This document shows, piece by piece, positions 1 through 30,419 of a stretch of 37,267 nt of DNA; within the stretch, counting starts at the first letter, position 1; the number at the start of each line of letters is the position of its first letter. Position numbers and translations under genes: made by a program. Source of the DNA: Microcaldota archaeon (lineage in GTDB: Archaea > Micrarchaeota > Micrarchaeia > Micrarchaeales > CABMGC01); assembly GCA_021809925.1 (NCBI GenBank), contig JAJZJV010000004.1:1-37267 (forward strand). Reading direction: 5' to 3'. Under the pieces are notes generated by a model. The model was not told the DNA's origin, searched no databases, and was given only the letters and a program-made list of their open reading frames with translations.

Positions 1-2
1 TC

Positions 3-347
3 ACAACGATGGGAGGAGCCCTCCCCAATGCTTTGTCATCTACACTACACTCTTCTGGAGCGCCAAGCAGCATTATACCATATATATCCTCAATCAGCCC
101 CACAGAAGCCCTATTCTCAGCTCTTCTCGGATATAATCCAGTATCATCAATACTTTCAGGTCTTCCAGAAGTAACAGCAAAACTTTCAGGAAGCATAATA
201 AACAAGATAACGAGCCTGACATTCTTCCCTGAGGCAATAGGCAGTGCATACATGCGGGGATTTAGGGAAGTCGTCATGATATCTGCAATACTTTTAATAA
301 TATCAGCAGTTGTATCTTACTTTAAGAAAAGTGGAAGGAGATCCTGA
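3..347 (+). CDS. C-terminal part of a membrane protein, possibly an MFS drug transporter (5' end outside window)
   Basis: Frame is open to the left edge; hydrophobic C-terminal helix ending FKKSGRRS; family guess is weak. Confidence 0.4.
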   Translation, partial: TTMGGALPNALSSTLHSSGAPSSIIPYISSISPTEALFSALLGYNPVSSILSGLPEVTAKLSGSIINKITSLTFFPEAIGSAYMRGFREVVMISAILLIISAVVSYFKKSGRRS

Positions 348-392: not shown

Positions 393-758
393 ATGGCAAA
401 ACGTACGAAAGATTCTGAGATAGCTACAAGGTATGTTTTCCTCTTTTTGGGATTGCTATTGATCCTTGCAACATTTCTAAGCAATTGGTGGGGAGAAGCG
501 GGAATAAGTTCATATCTTATCTATGATGTTGGAGCACTTTTGATATCGATAATAGCTGTGATACTGATAATAATGAATTGGAAGGACCAGAGACTGGATA
601 GCCTTGTCAGGCAGAACGATATCCTGCTGGTTATAGTTGTCATCGGATTGGTAATAGAAGCGATAGGTTTTTACGTCAAGAAGGATACTGCTTATGTCGG
701 CAACAACATCCAGGTAATGTTCGGGCTGATAATGGCAATGGTAAACAGGTACTTATGA
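393..758 (+). CDS. Small multi-TM membrane protein, type A of an A/B paralog array (copy A1)
   Basis: Motifs RYVFxxLxxLxxLATFLxxxWG ... NWxxxxLxxLxRQND ... NRYL shared with ORFs at 1111 and 1816. Confidence 0.85.
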   Translation: MAKRTKDSEIATRYVFLFLGLLLILATFLSNWWGEAGISSYLIYDVGALLISIIAVILIIMNWKDQRLDSLVRQNDILLVIVVIGLVIEAIGFYVKKDTAYVGNNIQVMFGLIMAMVNRYL

Positions 759-767
759 GGGGATTCT

Positions 768-1118
768 TTGAAGAGCATGATTCCAGAGGCGGCACGCCTC
801 AAGATGTGGATGTTTTTCTCTGTTATATTGTTTGTTATAGAGCTTCAGAACATAAATAACAATGTCTTAAATGCGAGTGGGATAATAGACTCGATTGGAG
901 TCGCGATCTTCGTCGCTCTGATAATAATCGCAGTAATGTTTACAAGAAAGAGCAGGAAGAAAGGTACTGTCAGCCTTAGGAACAACCTTATACTCCTCTT
1001 CTCGTTATTGGCATTTCTCTTCGAGATTATAGGAGTGGTGATGAGGACGCAGAACGTCAATTATACGATGGCAGGGATGGCCGCAGTAGTTCTCATGATA
1101 ATAAACAGGTTTGTTTGA
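768..1118 (+). CDS. Small multi-TM membrane protein, type B (copy B1)
   Basis: IPEAARLKMWMFFSVILFVIELQNINNNVLN motif shared with ORFs at 1485 and 2205; TTG start or ATG at 777. Confidence 0.8.
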   Translation: MKSMIPEAARLKMWMFFSVILFVIELQNINNNVLNASGIIDSIGVAIFVALIIIAVMFTRKSRKKGTVSLRNNLILLFSLLAFLFEIIGVVMRTQNVNYTMAGMAAVVLMIINRFV

Positions 1119-1488
1119 TGGTCATATGAAAGGTGTTGGGCTTGAGATTGAGAGAAGGTATGTCTTCTTTTCACTCTCAGTGCTTTTCGTAATAGCTACA
1201 ATCCTCACTGATTTCTGGGGGATAGGTACATCTGATTTTGGCATGCTTGCCGGAGATATCGGGACCCTGCTTATAACCATATTGATAAGTTATTTCATAC
1301 TCATCAACTGGAATGAGAAGAACACAAGGAAACTTTCGCGCCAGAATGATGCAATTGTACTCATGATGGCTATGGCTGTAGCGTTCCAGCTGTACGGCTA
1401 TTACAAGGATCTGAATACGCAATACGCAGTCGGCAATGTCCAGGTGATACTTGGACTTGTCTTAGCAATACTAAACAGGTATGTTTGA
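1111..1488 (+). CDS. Small multi-TM membrane protein, type A (copy A2)
   Basis: RRYVFFSLSVLFVIATILTDFWG ... NWNEKNTRKLSRQNDA ... ILNRYV; overlaps neighbours by a few nt. Confidence 0.85.
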   Translation: MFDGHMKGVGLEIERRYVFFSLSVLFVIATILTDFWGIGTSDFGMLAGDIGTLLITILISYFILINWNEKNTRKLSRQNDAIVLMMAMAVAFQLYGYYKDLNTQYAVGNVQVILGLVLAILNRYV

Positions 1489-1835
1489 TGGGAAGGGGGA
1501 TTTTATCATATAGAGCTGCCAGGAGAGCCATACTCTTCTTCTCGTTCATACTCTTACTGGCACAGGCAGAGGACATTAACGCAGACATACAGAGCCTTGG
1601 GCTTCTTATTGTAGATCTCCTTGTAGCATTATCCCTGCTCTTTGTGGTGGGACTTCTCGCCAAGGCAAAGAAGAAGCCAGAAAGGATCATTATTGATGCG
1701 GTAATAGTATTGCTTGCATTCGGTCTCTCTCTCGAGATTTTTGTGATCTTTGTCATGGATGCGAATATTAATTATCCTGCTGTCGCACTGCTGATGTTCG
1801 CGATGATGATAATAAATGCATTCTTGGGGAGATGA
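1485..1835 (+). CDS. Small multi-TM membrane protein, type B (copy B2)
   Basis: SYRAARRAILFFSFILLLAQAEDINADI aligned with B1/B3. Confidence 0.8.
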   Translation: MMGRGILSYRAARRAILFFSFILLLAQAEDINADIQSLGLLIVDLLVALSLLFVVGLLAKAKKKPERIIIDAVIVLLAFGLSLEIFVIFVMDANINYPAVALLMFAMMIINAFLGR

Positions 1836-2208
1836 ATTGAGTTCTGAAAGGCTTCGGAGGAAAGAGCTTGGCAGGAGATTCATACCTTTCGCCCTCTCGA
1901 TATTTTTCATATGCGCAACTCTTGCGACTGATTTCTGGGGAGAAGGAATTGCAGACCCAATTTCTATCATTGATTATATTGGAACCATGGTTGTGTGTAT
2001 CAGTATAATATATGTGGTTGTAGCCCGATGGAATGATGTCTCGCTGAATAGACTTAAGAGACAAAACAATGTTATCGTTGTACTCCTTCTCGCAAGCTTC
2101 ATGCTACAGCTATACGGATATGTGACAAAGCTCGGCACCACCTACGCAACCAATAACGTGCACATAATTTTCGGCACGGTACTCGCGATATTAAACAGGT
2201 TCGCATGA
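1816..2208 (+). CDS. Small multi-TM membrane protein, type A (copy A3)
   Basis: RRFIPFALSIFFICATLATDFWGEG ... RWNDVSLNRLKRQNN ... ILNRFA. Confidence 0.85.
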   Translation: MHSWGDELSSERLRRKELGRRFIPFALSIFFICATLATDFWGEGIADPISIIDYIGTMVVCISIIYVVVARWNDVSLNRLKRQNNVIVVLLLASFMLQLYGYVTKLGTTYATNNVHIIFGTVLAILNRFA

Positions 2209-2582
2209 TCATGAAGAAGCTTATCCCAGAATATGTCAAGAAACGCGCAATATTATTCTTCTCTGCGATTTTTTTTGTTGTATCGCTGAGCAACATAAAC
2301 TACGACATACTCAACCCATTATATCTTGTGAATGGAATTGGAGGAGCGATCATGTTCTTCTACATAATGCTGATTGTGGCTTTATCAAAGGAAAATGAAG
2401 CTAAGAAAAAGGCAAGGAAGAGAGAGCTCATCATAACGCTTGTGCTGCTTATTGCCCTGGTGTATTATGTCTCTGAGATAGTAGTAAGAACGCTTGTGCT
2501 GCGCATACCTTACGATGCTTCCCAGTCTTATGCGGCTGCAGTCATAATGCTTATGATAATGATAGTTATTGCCAATATATGA
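2205..2582 (+). CDS. Small multi-TM membrane protein, type B (copy B3)
   Basis: LIPEYVKKRAILFFSAIFFVVSLSNINYDILNP aligned with B1/B2. Confidence 0.8.
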   Translation: MIMKKLIPEYVKKRAILFFSAIFFVVSLSNINYDILNPLYLVNGIGGAIMFFYIMLIVALSKENEAKKKARKRELIITLVLLIALVYYVSEIVVRTLVLRIPYDASQSYAAAVIMLMIMIVIANI

Positions 2583-2583
2583 A

Positions 2584-3177
2584 TTATCTGCTTTTCCTTA
2601 TTGTTCCATTCTTTGCAAGCATTGCTGAACCGATCACTCCTGCCCAGAGAAGAAGAGGATATATTGCCATACGCTCCATGCCGCCATTGCCTATTCCGAG
2701 GTATGTTCCTGTTATGAAAAACAGGAGGCCGGTGAGGCTTGTGATGCCTGTGGCTATGCTGTAATATGCAAGCGGCTTGCCCAAGTTCCTGGAAAGGATT
2801 ATTGCAGCCATTGCGCCGAAAGTCAGGGCTATGCCAGAGAAGAGTACATGTAGCGATCCAAAGTACTCTGTGACTATCCCTATCGCACATGTTCCTATCC
2901 CTGCTATAGAAAGGATGAGGGGAAAAAGAATGCTTCTCATCTTTTTGTATATGAAGTATGAAGCGATGATCCCTGCAATGCCATACGTGATTATTGAGAG
3001 ATTGAACAGGCCTGAGAAGTTGCCCACGCCGAGATCGCTCACTGGCATTTGCAAGACACTGTATCCCGGATTAAGCAGTTCTGTTATTGCAATTGCAAGA
3101 AGGAATTGCACAGAGCCTATGAAAAATGCTGCGCCTCCGAGCTTCTCATAAAATCTTTCAGCGATCATTTTATCCAC
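2584..3177 (-). CDS. DUF998-like polytopic membrane protein
   Basis: Multi-TM with N-terminal GYSVLQMPVSDLGVG-type motif typical of DUF998. Confidence 0.65.
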   Translation of the reverse strand: MDKMIAERFYEKLGGAAFFIGSVQFLLAIAITELLNPGYSVLQMPVSDLGVGNFSGLFNLSIITYGIAGIIASYFIYKKMRSILFPLILSIAGIGTCAIGIVTEYFGSLHVLFSGIALTFGAMAAIILSRNLGKPLAYYSIATGITSLTGLLFFITGTYLGIGNGGMERMAIYPLLLWAGVIGSAMLAKNGTIRKSR

Positions 3178-15898: not shown

Positions 15899-18697
15899 AT
15901 GTCTAAAAACAGGGAGAATATAAAAGTAAAGGAATCCTCGAGGATGAGGAGCAACCCTGCCCCTGATAAACCAGATGTTCAGAAGAAAGAATCCGCAAAG
16001 AAGAAGGAGCGGAGAGAATCCAAATTGGTTCCTATATCCTTCTATTGGATCAAGGATTATATTAGGCAATTCCTGAGGAACAAAAATTTTCCGGATGCGA
16101 TGGCTGCGACTTTTGCCGTTGCAAGCGTGGCAATCGCTTTCCCATTATTTCCGCTGCCGGTATTGATAGCATTGCTGGCTATAACGTTTGTAATAACGAT
16201 ATTCAGCCCGCTCTTGGGGCTTATGGCGTTGCTTTTTGAGACATTTCCGATGTTTATATACCAATCCCCGCTCCTGGCATGGATACTTACAATATTCATA
16301 ACAATCTCACTCTTCCTTGGATACAAGCATTATAGGACAATAACGCTGATTTACCTTCTTGCAGTGCTTCCACTTTCCTATCTTGGATACCTCCTTGAAT
16401 TCCCTGCGCTTATTGTTGGAATACTTTTCATAGGGCTTAAGAGGGGAAGCATTGCAGCAATAGCAACAGTGCTTATAGTTGCGATGCTTTCAGGGCTTAC
16501 TGGAATACAGAACACAGGTCCAATAGTGTACAATGCAAGCTCTGCGCACGCTATCCTTGCAAAATCAGAAGTTGCCTCGTTATTTGTTCCAAGCAAAGCA
16601 GTAGCCACTCTCGGAGGAGTCCTGCCTGCTCTCTCAAACTCTATCTCAAACTTCTTCAGCTTCAGCGTCTCATCACACATATTTGATGGATTCGCACTTG
16701 CATTCACTGCACTCTCGTATGATTGGATAATGACAGGCATACAGGCATTGATATGGCTTTTTGTTGTCTTCTCGATAAGCAACTACGTAATAAAGAGCAG
16801 GTCACCGTATAAGGGGGCCGAGTCAAGCATATTGGGAGTCATAATACCTATATCGTATATAGCAATCTCATATATTACCACCACCCCTTACACAATGTAT
16901 ATATTATGGAGCTTTGTGATCACTCCCTTCGCAATATTCTCTCTTGAGATAAATAACATTGACGTTGTAAGGGCCCTTGAAGTCATGAAGCAGGACTTCC
17001 TTGGAAAGTTTGGGGAATCTTTTGAGGAATTTTCCACAGGATCCAGGGAGACACTCGACGACATAGCTAATTACAACGAGACAAAAAAGGAGCTCAAGGA
17101 AGCGATACTCGCACCGATAGAGCATAGGGAGATATCTGGAGCATATAATGTCAAACCCACAAAAGGCATTCTTCTCTTCGGCCCTCCGGGAACAGGTAAG
17201 ACATTGCTGATGAGAGTAATATCAAACGAGATACGCGCCCGCTTCTTTTATATCAAGACATCTTCTATACTATCGCCATATTCTGGAGAGGGCGCACAGG
17301 TTCTTGCAAAAATATTTAACACTGCGAAGAAGAACAAGCCTGCTGTCCTGTTCTTTGATGAGATAGATGCGATAGCAGGCAGTAGGGAGATGCAGGAGAG
17401 CGAGAGCACAAGGCAGCTTCTCTCCACTTTACTGAGTGAGATGGACGGATTCCAGAAGAGCGAGGGAATAGTTGTCGTAGGAGCTACTAATATACCACAT
17501 GTGCTCGACCCGGGAATAATGAGGCCCGGAAGGTTTGATAAGATAATATATATGCCTCTGCCAGACAAGAAAGGCAGGGAAGAGATATTCAGGTATTACC
17601 TGAAGAAGCTGCCGGTAAGCGATAACATAGACTACCAGAGGTTATCTGAGCTTACTGAAAGATTCTCCGGCGCAGATGTCAAGAGCATATGCGATGAATC
17701 TGCAAGACAGGTTGCTGATGTTGCAGTAAGCCAGGTCAAAGTACTTAAGATAACAACAGATGATCTAATAACCAATATCAAAAGGACAAAGCCTTCAACA
17801 TCGCTTAGCCAGATCGAGACTTACAACAATTTCAGGCTTGATTACGAGAGAAGGTCGCATCCGGAAAAGGTTATCAGGGACCAGAATGCCATTATAATAA
17901 ATGATGTCGTCGGGCTTGATGAAGCAAAGAATGCGCTGAAGGAAGCTGTGGAGATGCCGCTACTGCACCAGAACATGATTAAAAAGTATGATATATCCGC
18001 TATTAAAGGCATTCTTCTCTTCGGCCCTCCGGGAACAGGTAAGACAATGCTGATGAAAGCGGTTGCAAATGAAATGGGTGATATTAGCATGATAGTCATC
18101 TCGGGCCCTGATGTACAGATGGCTGGAGCTGAGAATGCGACATTGGCCATAAAGCAGATATTCGAAAGGGCGAAGGAGAATGCACCAAGCATACTCTTTA
18201 TTGATGAAATAGATGCGATAGTTCCTTCGCGAGAAGGAGCCAGCGAGACAGGATTGCAGATGACAAGCCAATTTCTGCAGGAGATGGATGGGATAAAGGA
18301 ATCTAGCGGAATAGTGATTGTTGGAGCAACAAATAGGCCCGATGCTCTTGATTCTGCGCTTCTCAGGGCTGGCAGGTTTGATAAGCTCATCTTTGTACCG
18401 CCACCAAATCAGGATGAGCGGGAAAGGCTGTTCGAGAAGTATCTTAAGAAAGCCCCGATTGCAAAAGTGGAGTTTGCAGAGCTTGCAAAGGAGACAGATG
18501 GATTCACAGGAGCTGATATAGCTAATCTCTGCAGGGAGGTAAAGATGAAAGTTATGGAGAATGCGATAAAAGTCTCTGAAGAAAGAGAGATCATGATGGA
18601 AGATATACTTCTTGCAATGAAAGAGATCAGGCCATCAGCGCCTGAGAGCGAGATCCTGAGGTATAAAGAATTTATATCAAGATACGGGAAGAGATGA
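15899..18697 (+). CDS. Membrane-anchored tandem AAA+ ATPase (CDC48-like AAA modules with N-terminal polytopic TM domain)
   Basis: Two Walker A motifs (GILLFGPPGTGKT) and Walker B motifs (LFFDEIDA, LFIDEIDA), two arginine-finger regions, about 330 aa hydrophobic N-terminal part. Confidence 0.93.
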   Translation: MSKNRENIKVKESSRMRSNPAPDKPDVQKKESAKKKERRESKLVPISFYWIKDYIRQFLRNKNFPDAMAATFAVASVAIAFPLFPLPVLIALLAITFVITIFSPLLGLMALLFETFPMFIYQSPLLAWILTIFITISLFLGYKHYRTITLIYLLAVLPLSYLGYLLEFPALIVGILFIGLKRGSIAAIATVLIVAMLSGLTGIQNTGPIVYNASSAHAILAKSEVASLFVPSKAVATLGGVLPALSNSISNFFSFSVSSHIFDGFALAFTALSYDWIMTGIQALIWLFVVFSISNYVIKSRSPYKGAESSILGVIIPISYIAISYITTTPYTMYILWSFVITPFAIFSLEINNIDVVRALEVMKQDFLGKFGESFEEFSTGSRETLDDIANYNETKKELKEAILAPIEHREISGAYNVKPTKGILLFGPPGTGKTLLMRVISNEIRARFFYIKTSSILSPYSGEGAQVLAKIFNTAKKNKPAVLFFDEIDAIAGSREMQESESTRQLLSTLLSEMDGFQKSEGIVVVGATNIPHVLDPGIMRPGRFDKIIYMPLPDKKGREEIFRYYLKKLPVSDNIDYQRLSELTERFSGADVKSICDESARQVADVAVSQVKVLKITTDDLITNIKRTKPSTSLSQIETYNNFRLDYERRSHPEKVIRDQNAIIINDVVGLDEAKNALKEAVEMPLLHQNMIKKYDISAIKGILLFGPPGTGKTMLMKAVANEMGDISMIVISGPDVQMAGAENATLAIKQIFERAKENAPSILFIDEIDAIVPSREGASETGLQMTSQFLQEMDGIKESSGIVIVGATNRPDALDSALLRAGRFDKLIFVPPPNQDERERLFEKYLKKAPIAKVEFAELAKETDGFTGADIANLCREVKMKVMENAIKVSEEREIMMEDILLAMKEIRPSAPESEILRYKEFISRYGKR

Positions 18698-23962: not shown

Positions 23963-24646
23963 TTGGCTTTTTATTACTTGCTTTCCTCAGTTAAGAGGAT
24001 GGACAAAAGAACAGAGCTTTATATTGCGAAAAGATACGTTGCATTTGTTTTTGCGATGTTGGCAGTGTTAGGTTATCCTGCGACAATGTTTTTTGAGGTA
24101 AAACAAAGAAACCTTCTTCTTTTGGAAGTAATAATATTTATCATCGGAATAGGCATAGTGGCGTACATAGCTAGGAGTAGGAAGAAAAACAGTAGTAGGG
24201 AATTAAGGAAGCAGATCCGAACCATTGCCTTTCTGTTAGCAATAGACACTGCGCTTCAGTTCTTTTGCGTTGTTCTTACGATACACCTTGCCGTCTTTGT
24301 AGACATGATCTACATAACTGTAGGATTTATGGCAGTGATATTAAACTTAGTGAGCGGAGAGGCGGTGAATTCATTCATGAGCAGGCATTTGCCCGACTCT
24401 GCCAGAAAAAGAGCATGGACTTACATGATTATACTGCTTTTATTATCGAATGTGGCTGCAGTTAATAGGGATATAAGTAATCCAAATGTGATAATCCCGA
24501 TAGATGAAATTATCATAATACTTGTATCATTTGTTCTACTCTGGCTTGTAAGGTTCGTATCATTATCAACGAAGAAAAGGTTGGTTAAAAGAGACAGATG
24601 GATTGCCACGCTTGTATTGTTTGGGCTGTATTCTTGTTTGATATGA
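23963..24646 (+). CDS. Membrane protein, single-ORF fusion of a type A and a type B module
   Basis: First half AKRYVAFVFAMLAVLGYPATMFFE... aligns to type A; second half HLPDSARKRAWTYMIILLLLSNVAAVNRDISNPNVIIPIDEI aligns to type B. Confidence 0.75.
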   Translation: MAFYYLLSSVKRMDKRTELYIAKRYVAFVFAMLAVLGYPATMFFEVKQRNLLLLEVIIFIIGIGIVAYIARSRKKNSSRELRKQIRTIAFLLAIDTALQFFCVVLTIHLAVFVDMIYITVGFMAVILNLVSGEAVNSFMSRHLPDSARKRAWTYMIILLLLSNVAAVNRDISNPNVIIPIDEIIIILVSFVLLWLVRFVSLSTKKRLVKRDRWIATLVLFGLYSCLI

Positions 24647-24649
24647 TAA

Positions 24650-24686
24650 ATAATGGAGCTGGAATAAATTAGTTTGGAGACATTGG
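24650..24686 (+). repeat. Imperfect direct repeat R2 flanking A-B fusion gene
   Basis: ATAATGGAGCTGGAATAAATTAGTTTGGAGACATTGG. Confidence 0.75.
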
Positions 24687-27958: not shown

Positions 27959-30378
27959 ATGAAAACTTCAAGACTCTCAGTACTACATGGAATCTGGTTC
28001 GAGGAGGAAACAGGAGGATTATTCTTTCTCTGAGTAGAAACATCATTATCAAAAAAACGGAAGGATCGTATCCATCCGCGTACACTCGCTTCTAAAGCTC
28101 TTGCCACTGCCGTTTCAAGTCTATATCCACTCATTTCAGACAGCATACTGCCCAAGAAGTTGGTGCTCAGACTTCCAAGTTCCAAAACAGAACCTCTTCC
28201 ATCACCGCAGCTTGAAGGCATTGTAGAATATGATGAAGAAGATGCAGAAGAATTTGCAGAATGGAAGGTTGAAGGTATTGTGCTCCCTGCGGACTGTGCA
28301 GCAGAAGTGCTTAAGGACAGTGCAAGGCTTGAAGACATGCTTAATGCAGTGCGCGGACGGGACTTGCTTCTTTTTGTCTACGCGAGAGACTTCGCGCTAA
28401 GACTTCTGGCAAACAAGAGATTTCTTCCTTCAGTTCAGGATAAGAACGGAAAGATTACATCCATATGGCTTCCGTTGATTGATAGAGAAGAGGAGAGGCT
28501 GGAACTGAGCGTAATTGAAGGGGCGATGCCACAAGCGTGCACCTCTGCACAGCCAGATAAGATCGGTTCCGAACTTCTTCGCGGCTTCATTAGGAATTTC
28601 ATTGATCTGATGTGCAGGAAACTTGCTGCAGATAGCAAAAAGGTAGATGCAAATGAAGGATATGAAGACTCAGTAAGATGGGCTCTCGCGCTTGGCGACA
28701 GAAACCCCGCCTTATCCTGCAATTCAGAGAGCCTTGTCTGCAAGGCAATATGGGAATGGAGCTCCAGAATACTCAAGTCGTCGGAAGGCGAGTTCAGACT
28801 CTGCTTCAGAATAGATGATGTTGGAGAAGTACTCCGGCTAAGCACTCTTGCACAGTCGAGAAAAGATCCGAGCCTTGTGGCCGATCTCTCAGACAGCAAG
28901 TTAATATCGGCAGGGAGATTCGGTGGTGAGACGGAGGGAATGATGCTACACATGGGCTTCGCTTCTAGGCTTTCTCCCCTCGTAGAACGAATTCTGCATA
29001 TGCAAAGGCCTGGAGGTTTGGTGCTTTCGCCCTCTGAAGCTTACGACTTCCTCGATCGTCATGCGCCTTTGCTTGCACAGAACGGATTTGGCGTTATGGT
29101 GCCTGACTGGTGGAAGGAGCGGAGGAAATTGTTGGGCATGAAGGTTATTGCAAGACCGGCTAATGTTCCAAAACCTTCAGGAGGAATGTTCGGCATTGAT
29201 GCGCTTCTTGATTATGATTTGGAGATCATGAGTGGAGGGCGAGAGCTCGAGAAAGAGGAGATCGAGAGGCTTCTATCGCTTGATGTGCCTCTTGCAAGGC
29301 TTGATGGCAGATGAATTGAGATAGACAAGGAGAAGATCAAATCCGCCCTAAGACTTATTCATAAAAAAGGTAAGCGCTCCTCATTCAGGGATGTGATGAA
29401 GCTTGGAAGCGATGGAGGCCTCCCCATTGTAGAGTATGAGGGAGAGGGCTGGGTTGGAAAGCTTTTTGGAGACACAGAGCGTTTTACCCCACTTAACCAG
29501 CCCAGGGCATTCGCTGGCACTTTGAGGGAGTATCAGAAGTTTGGTTTCTCATGGCTCTCCTATCTCGGAGAGACTGGCTTCGGATGCTGTCTGGCGGACG
29601 ATATGGGCTTGGGAAAGACTGCACAGACCATTGCAATGCTGCTCAAACGAAAAGAAGGTGGAAATTCTAAGGGTTCGTCGCTCGTCCTCTGCCCTACCTC
29701 GGTAGTAAGCAACTGGGTTCACGAATTTGAGAAGTTCGGTCCAGACCTTAAAATCATGGTCCATCATGGCTCAGAAAGACGGCATGGAAAGAGCTTTAGG
29801 AATGCGGCAGCAGAGTCGGACATTGTAATAAGCACATATGCAGTGCTTAATAGGGATATCTTGCACCTGCAGAAGGTTGCATGGGACGGCATCATACTCG
29901 ACGAAGCACAAAATATAAAGAACGAGTCTACAAAACAGAGCAGAAATTCCAAATCGTTACTCGCAAACTACAAGATTGCGCTTACTGGAACCCCCGTAGA
30001 GAATAGGCTCTCCGAACTTAAGTCAATACTCGACTTTCTGAATCCAGGCTATCTGGGCTCTACAGATAAATTCGTAAAAGAATATTCTATTCCGATAGAG
30101 AAATTTAACGATGCAGAGCGCATGGCAACATTGCATCGCATGGTGAGCCCATTCATACTGCGCAGGGTGAAGACAGATAAACATATAATATCTGACCTTC
30201 CCGAGAAAAATGAAATGAAAGTTTACTGCTCTATAACAAAAGAGCAAGCTGCGCTTTACGAAAATACTGTGGCTGACATGATGCGGAGAATAGAGGGAAC
30301 TTCGGGCATAGAAAGGAGGGGCATTGTTATAAACGCGATTCTGAAGCTGAAACAGATACTCAATCATCCAGCGCAGTT
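27959..30378 (+). pseudogene. SNF2-family helicase, interrupted by two in-frame TGA codons and truncated before the second helicase lobe
   Basis: Single frame from ATG 27959; VLHGIWFEEETGGLFFL-TGA-VETS and LARLDGR-TGA-IEIDKEKIKSAL; ADDMGLGKTAQTIAMLLK, ILDEAQNIKN, LTGTPVENRLSEL. Confidence 0.85.
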
Positions 30379-30419
30379 TACAAAAGACCTGAATCTGCGC
30401 TGGTAAAATCGTTTTGGCG
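30379..30419 (+). repeat. 41-bp perfect inverted repeat, right copy
   Basis: TACAAAAGACCTGAATCTGCGCTGGTAAAATCGTTTTGGCG. Confidence 0.95.

Follow-up and report, generated by a model that had tools for sequence, protein, structure and literature searches.

The A and B proteins encoded by an array of linked gene pairs in a 37,267-nucleotide stretch of archaeal DNA (the window, which is contig 5 of a 0.9-Mb assembly of 48 contigs) are predicted, with moderate confidence, to form a hetero-oligomeric membrane complex, and this is the most likely of the readings that we considered. In particular, we favor a hetero-oligomer because A and B share the same predicted topology, are encoded by linked gene pairs, are paired repeatedly in the genome, and occur as natural fusions. 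The earlier note on this DNA had gone further, describing an obligate A+B complex; that claim does not stand in its original form, although the fusions lend indirect support to joint action. Moreover, most relatives hold a single A-type gene without B, and the A fold thus appears to need no B in general.

The six-gene array and its protein family

The array at positions 393-2582 consists of six intact genes in strict A-B-A-B-A-B order (Table 1), just as the earlier note had described it, and the protein sizes given there (116-130 aa) are correct for the array. The motifs that it listed, RYVF...NRY for A and IPE...FFS...NIN for B, are also present, but B2 and the copies elsewhere in the genome show them only weakly. 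Adjacent genes either overlap or are separated by short gaps, and B2 overlaps A3 if the latter starts at 1816. (Note that a gene for a DUF998 membrane protein lies immediately past the array at 2584-3177, in convergent orientation on the minus strand, and does so in the sister species as well.)

Table 1 Positions of the array genes, the upstream MFS gene, and the fused copy within the window
Feature	Position	Strand	Length	Remarks
MFS exporter gene, 3' end	1..347	+		full 549-aa gene on contig 28
A1	393..758	+	121 aa	four predicted TM helices, N-in
B1	777..1118	+		from ATG 777; ORF finder start is TTG 768; AlphaFold2 four-helix model
A2	1126..1488	+	120 aa	AlphaFold2 four-helix bundle
B2	1488..1835	+	115 aa	start overlaps A2 stop (TGATG)
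A3	1816..2208	+		likely start 1816 ATG or 1837 TTG
B3	2205..2582	+	125 aa	start overlaps A3 stop (ATGA)
A7-B7	24005..24646	+		A and B fused in one frame, 22 kb from array

The earlier note had proposed pairwise alignment as a check on whether the resemblance within each group reflects hydrophobic composition only. In blastp comparisons the E-values were 1e-25/1e-17 for A1-A2, 6e-34 for A2-A3, and 7e-23/3e-18 for A1-A3; those for the B proteins were 4e-15/3e-12 (B1-B3), 1e-6/2e-5 (B1-B2), and 1e-4 (B2-B3). Taken together with shuffle z-scores of 29-46 for A-A and 7.6-18 for B-B, which set the resemblance within each group far above that of shuffled controls, these values show that the similarity exceeds what composition would produce, and the outcome that would have refuted the earlier note did not arise.

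Similarity also extends between the two groups. Pairwise, A3 and B1 align with a z-score of 8.3 (E 7e-4), and a profile of A-type proteins matches B1 (8e-13), B2 (2e-6), and B3 (3e-8), none of which belongs to the profile; its own members A1-A3 match at 1e-39 to 2e-42. Family membership was taken to require a significant profile match across most of the length, and such a match was found for each of A1-A3 and B1-B3. Because the A-type profile finds all three B proteins, B is a diverged branch of the family of A, with the same predicted topology. Thus, the two families of the earlier note remain as two distinguishable groups but, as judged from these matches, they represent two subfamilies within a single unnamed family rather than separate families.

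That no known family could be recognized in these proteins was borne out, since searches of Pfam, NCBIfam, PHROGs, PADLOC, and PDB sequences returned nothing significant for A or B. (Weak Pfam matches to MFS_1, Acyl_transf_3, and NMN_transporter fell below the cut-off, were hydrophobic in nature, and were discarded.) When viral contigs were scanned with the B alignment, no relative was recovered, and no description of the family was found in the titles and abstracts that literature searches returned.

Among 303 genomes of the phylum, a broad A profile found matches in 22, distributed sporadically and mostly as one gene each; genome G027 has two pairs and G032 has one. The B profile gave strong matches only within that genus, and elsewhere it gave weak matches (35 bits at best) to A-type genes or to unclassified members of pairs. 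Clear B-type genes are thus found only in the genus of the array, and the duplication can be called old, as had been claimed, within the genus but not beyond it.

Further copies and the neighboring MFS gene

Four more A/B-type pairs are present in the genome: two in tandem on contig 27 (A4-B4-A5-B5), one fused on contig 42 (A6-B6), and one fused in the window itself (A7-B7). The order of A then B is kept on contigs 27 and 42 and in A7-B7. Within A7-B7, the A profile matches at 24005-24346 and the B profile at 24374-24658, and the B proteins align to the C-terminal half; the B half is truncated by a frame change, and its remainder can be read in another frame, with a stop, so that A7-B7 is probably a relic. 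In the A6-B6 fusion (L011 11411-12160) it is A6 that carries a frame change, and the counterpart in the sister species (contig 18; L056 1886-2623, minus strand) is a single intact A-B fusion ORF of 245 aa. Joint action of A and B is indirectly supported by these fusions at two loci. Note that a stretch close to the left end of contig 27 (about 105 bases as judged by eye) recurs at the right end of contig 42, and the two arrays may therefore be neighbors. One A-type pair without B lies on contig 2 (L010 3525-4321), between a gene that reads as leucyl-tRNA synthetase-like and cydAB, which encode cytochrome bd oxidase. (Two other genes of the window were noted by reading: 15899-18697 encodes a protein of 932 aa with a hydrophobic N-terminal part and two AAA-type ATPase domains, and 28160-30406 holds a helicase-like gene, seemingly split in two ORFs.)

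The window begins within a gene for an MFS exporter. The product of positions 1..347 is 98% identical to residues 436-549 of an MFS protein encoded on contig 28, which as a whole matches Pfam MFS_1 at 1e-43. Since the end of contig 28 is a repeat of the start of the window, the array is preceded by the MFS gene and a gene for topoisomerase VI B, as it is in the sister species. The MFS gene ends 46 bases before A1; in the sister species the MFS gene and A1 follow one another in the same order on one contig, and in G032, which belongs to another genus, two A-type genes lie within tens of bases downstream of an MFS gene with 52% identity. No pair adjoins the MFS gene of G027, which is the next closest (53%). 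With an MFS gene directly upstream of the array and another upstream of a related pair in a different genus, a role related to transport suggests itself, and the A+B module is perhaps accessory to transport.

The gene order described above, together with the position of the contig-2 A-type pair beside cydAB, would also fit a role of A and B as accessory subunits, whether of the adjoining MFS exporter or of some other large membrane complex, rather than as a transporter themselves. However, no MFS gene adjoins the pairs of contigs 27 and 42 or the single A-type genes of relatives (the single genes have no evident constant neighbor of any kind), and MFS homologs are common where A-type genes are missing: 43 of the 61 genomes with an MFS match have none. 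We therefore regard such an accessory role as rather unlikely, while it remains the strongest of the alternatives; it is compatible with assembly of A and B as a hetero-oligomer.

Duplication and retention of the gene pairs

A tree of 30 proteins placed the A-type proteins of the genus (the contig-2 pair excluded) in one group (support 98/80) and the B proteins in another (96/88). Pairs 4+5 and 6+7 cluster in both the A and the B halves of this tree, with uneven support. The congruence of the A and B trees was assessed over all 945 seven-leaf topologies. The best tree for A was not rejected by the B data (dlnL 1.4, AU 0.76), permutation of pair labels on the joint tree gave p=0.024, and the log likelihoods of the two data sets were rank-correlated across the 945 topologies (0.46, p=0.024). 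Conversely, the best tree for B, whose trees are weakly supported, was rejected by the A data, and a Mantel test on the raw A and B distance matrices found no correlation (r 0.13, p 0.35). Because of these last two results, support is moderate for a tree structure shared by A and B of the kind that duplication of whole pairs predicts. Nevertheless, this shared structure and the same-order A-B pairs at other loci support duplication of a two-gene unit, for which the earlier note had proposed phylogeny as a test.

The sister species has each of the six ORFs in intact form, and the pooled dN/dS of 0.26 shows purifying selection; both agree with the claim that the duplication has been retained. 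The substitutions between the two species fall 25/10/49 by codon position (49 of 84 at the third). Taken singly, A1 has a dN/dS of 0.05, and A2, B2, and B3, with few changes each, have values of 0.6-0.7.

These data also bear on whether the array could have arisen by tandem amplification of a single membrane protein gene, neutral or driven by dosage, such that A and B act separately. Amplification of that kind would allow for the decay of two fused copies in this genome and for the several members of the family that are single genes, but it does not readily account for strict alternation of deeply diverged copies, for six ORFs intact in two species, for the shared tree structure, or for fusions that are invariably A then B. 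We consider it improbable. Instead, we propose that, within the genus, duplication of one ancestral A-type gene gave a second copy from which B arose by divergence, and that the resulting A-B pair would then have been duplicated as a unit to give three pairs in the array, two on contig 27, and the fused ones elsewhere.

Function may have changed after duplication. Related archaea encode, as single genes, uncharacterized A-type proteins (e.g. L058, L059, and L062) that are clear homologs of A, with profile E-values of 1e-43 to 1e-46. Their outer loops mostly contain 5-8 acidic residues, whereas those of the A and B copies of the genus contain 0-4. This difference in outer-loop acidic residues suggests the change.

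Predicted topology and assembly

AlphaFold2 modeled A2 as a four-helix bundle (pLDDT 81, pTM 0.74) and B1 as four helices (pLDDT 74). Across all A and B proteins of at least 100 aa, lysine and arginine residues number 7-13 on the inner side and 0-3 on the outer side, from which both termini are predicted to be inside (N-in/C-in) and A and B to share the same orientation. A fold search of the PDB gave no match below E 0.1, and none among viral folds was significant. (A model of an A-B fusion, used in place of the complex, was dropped, as its alignment set B proteins on the A half.)

Paired SMR genes and paired CrcB/Fluc genes likewise encode small four-helix membrane proteins in tandem: SMR pairs are adjacent homologous genes for proteins of about 110 residues, and CrcB/Fluc paralogs are paired at times. 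A and B resemble them in size, in the four helices of the AlphaFold2 models, and in gene arrangement, but a transporter of the SMR or fluoride-channel type, in which a solute is moved by an antiparallel heterodimer of oppositely oriented subunits, is very improbable here, given that neither an SMR nor a CrcB profile appears among the Pfam matches at E<=1 or the NCBIfam matches at E<=0.5, that no PDB fold matched below E 0.1, that A and B are predicted to lie in the same and not in opposite orientations, and that their direct fusion, with no extra helix, requires the same topology.

We therefore return to the A:B hetero-oligomer, in which A and B would be four-helix proteins of about 120 residues, made from linked and partly overlapping genes. 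Such an arrangement would entail co-translation of A and B and their physical assembly, probably as a small membrane module that is related to transport or accessory to a transporter. A bolder version, which we put forward only tentatively and think rather unlikely, is that A and B make up a new heteromeric complex, in which two four-helix subunits lie in parallel and which is confined to one archaeal lineage with tiny genomes, and that the several A:B pairs are diversified channels, transporters, or partners of transporters.

In either case, a genome of only 0.9 Mb keeps over ten genes from a single unnamed family of membrane proteins, the pairs of which duplicate, fuse, and decay. If our reading is correct, these genes would constitute a compact natural record of a single-gene membrane protein turning into a two-subunit one, and would name a target for functional study in archaea whose membrane proteins are poorly characterized.
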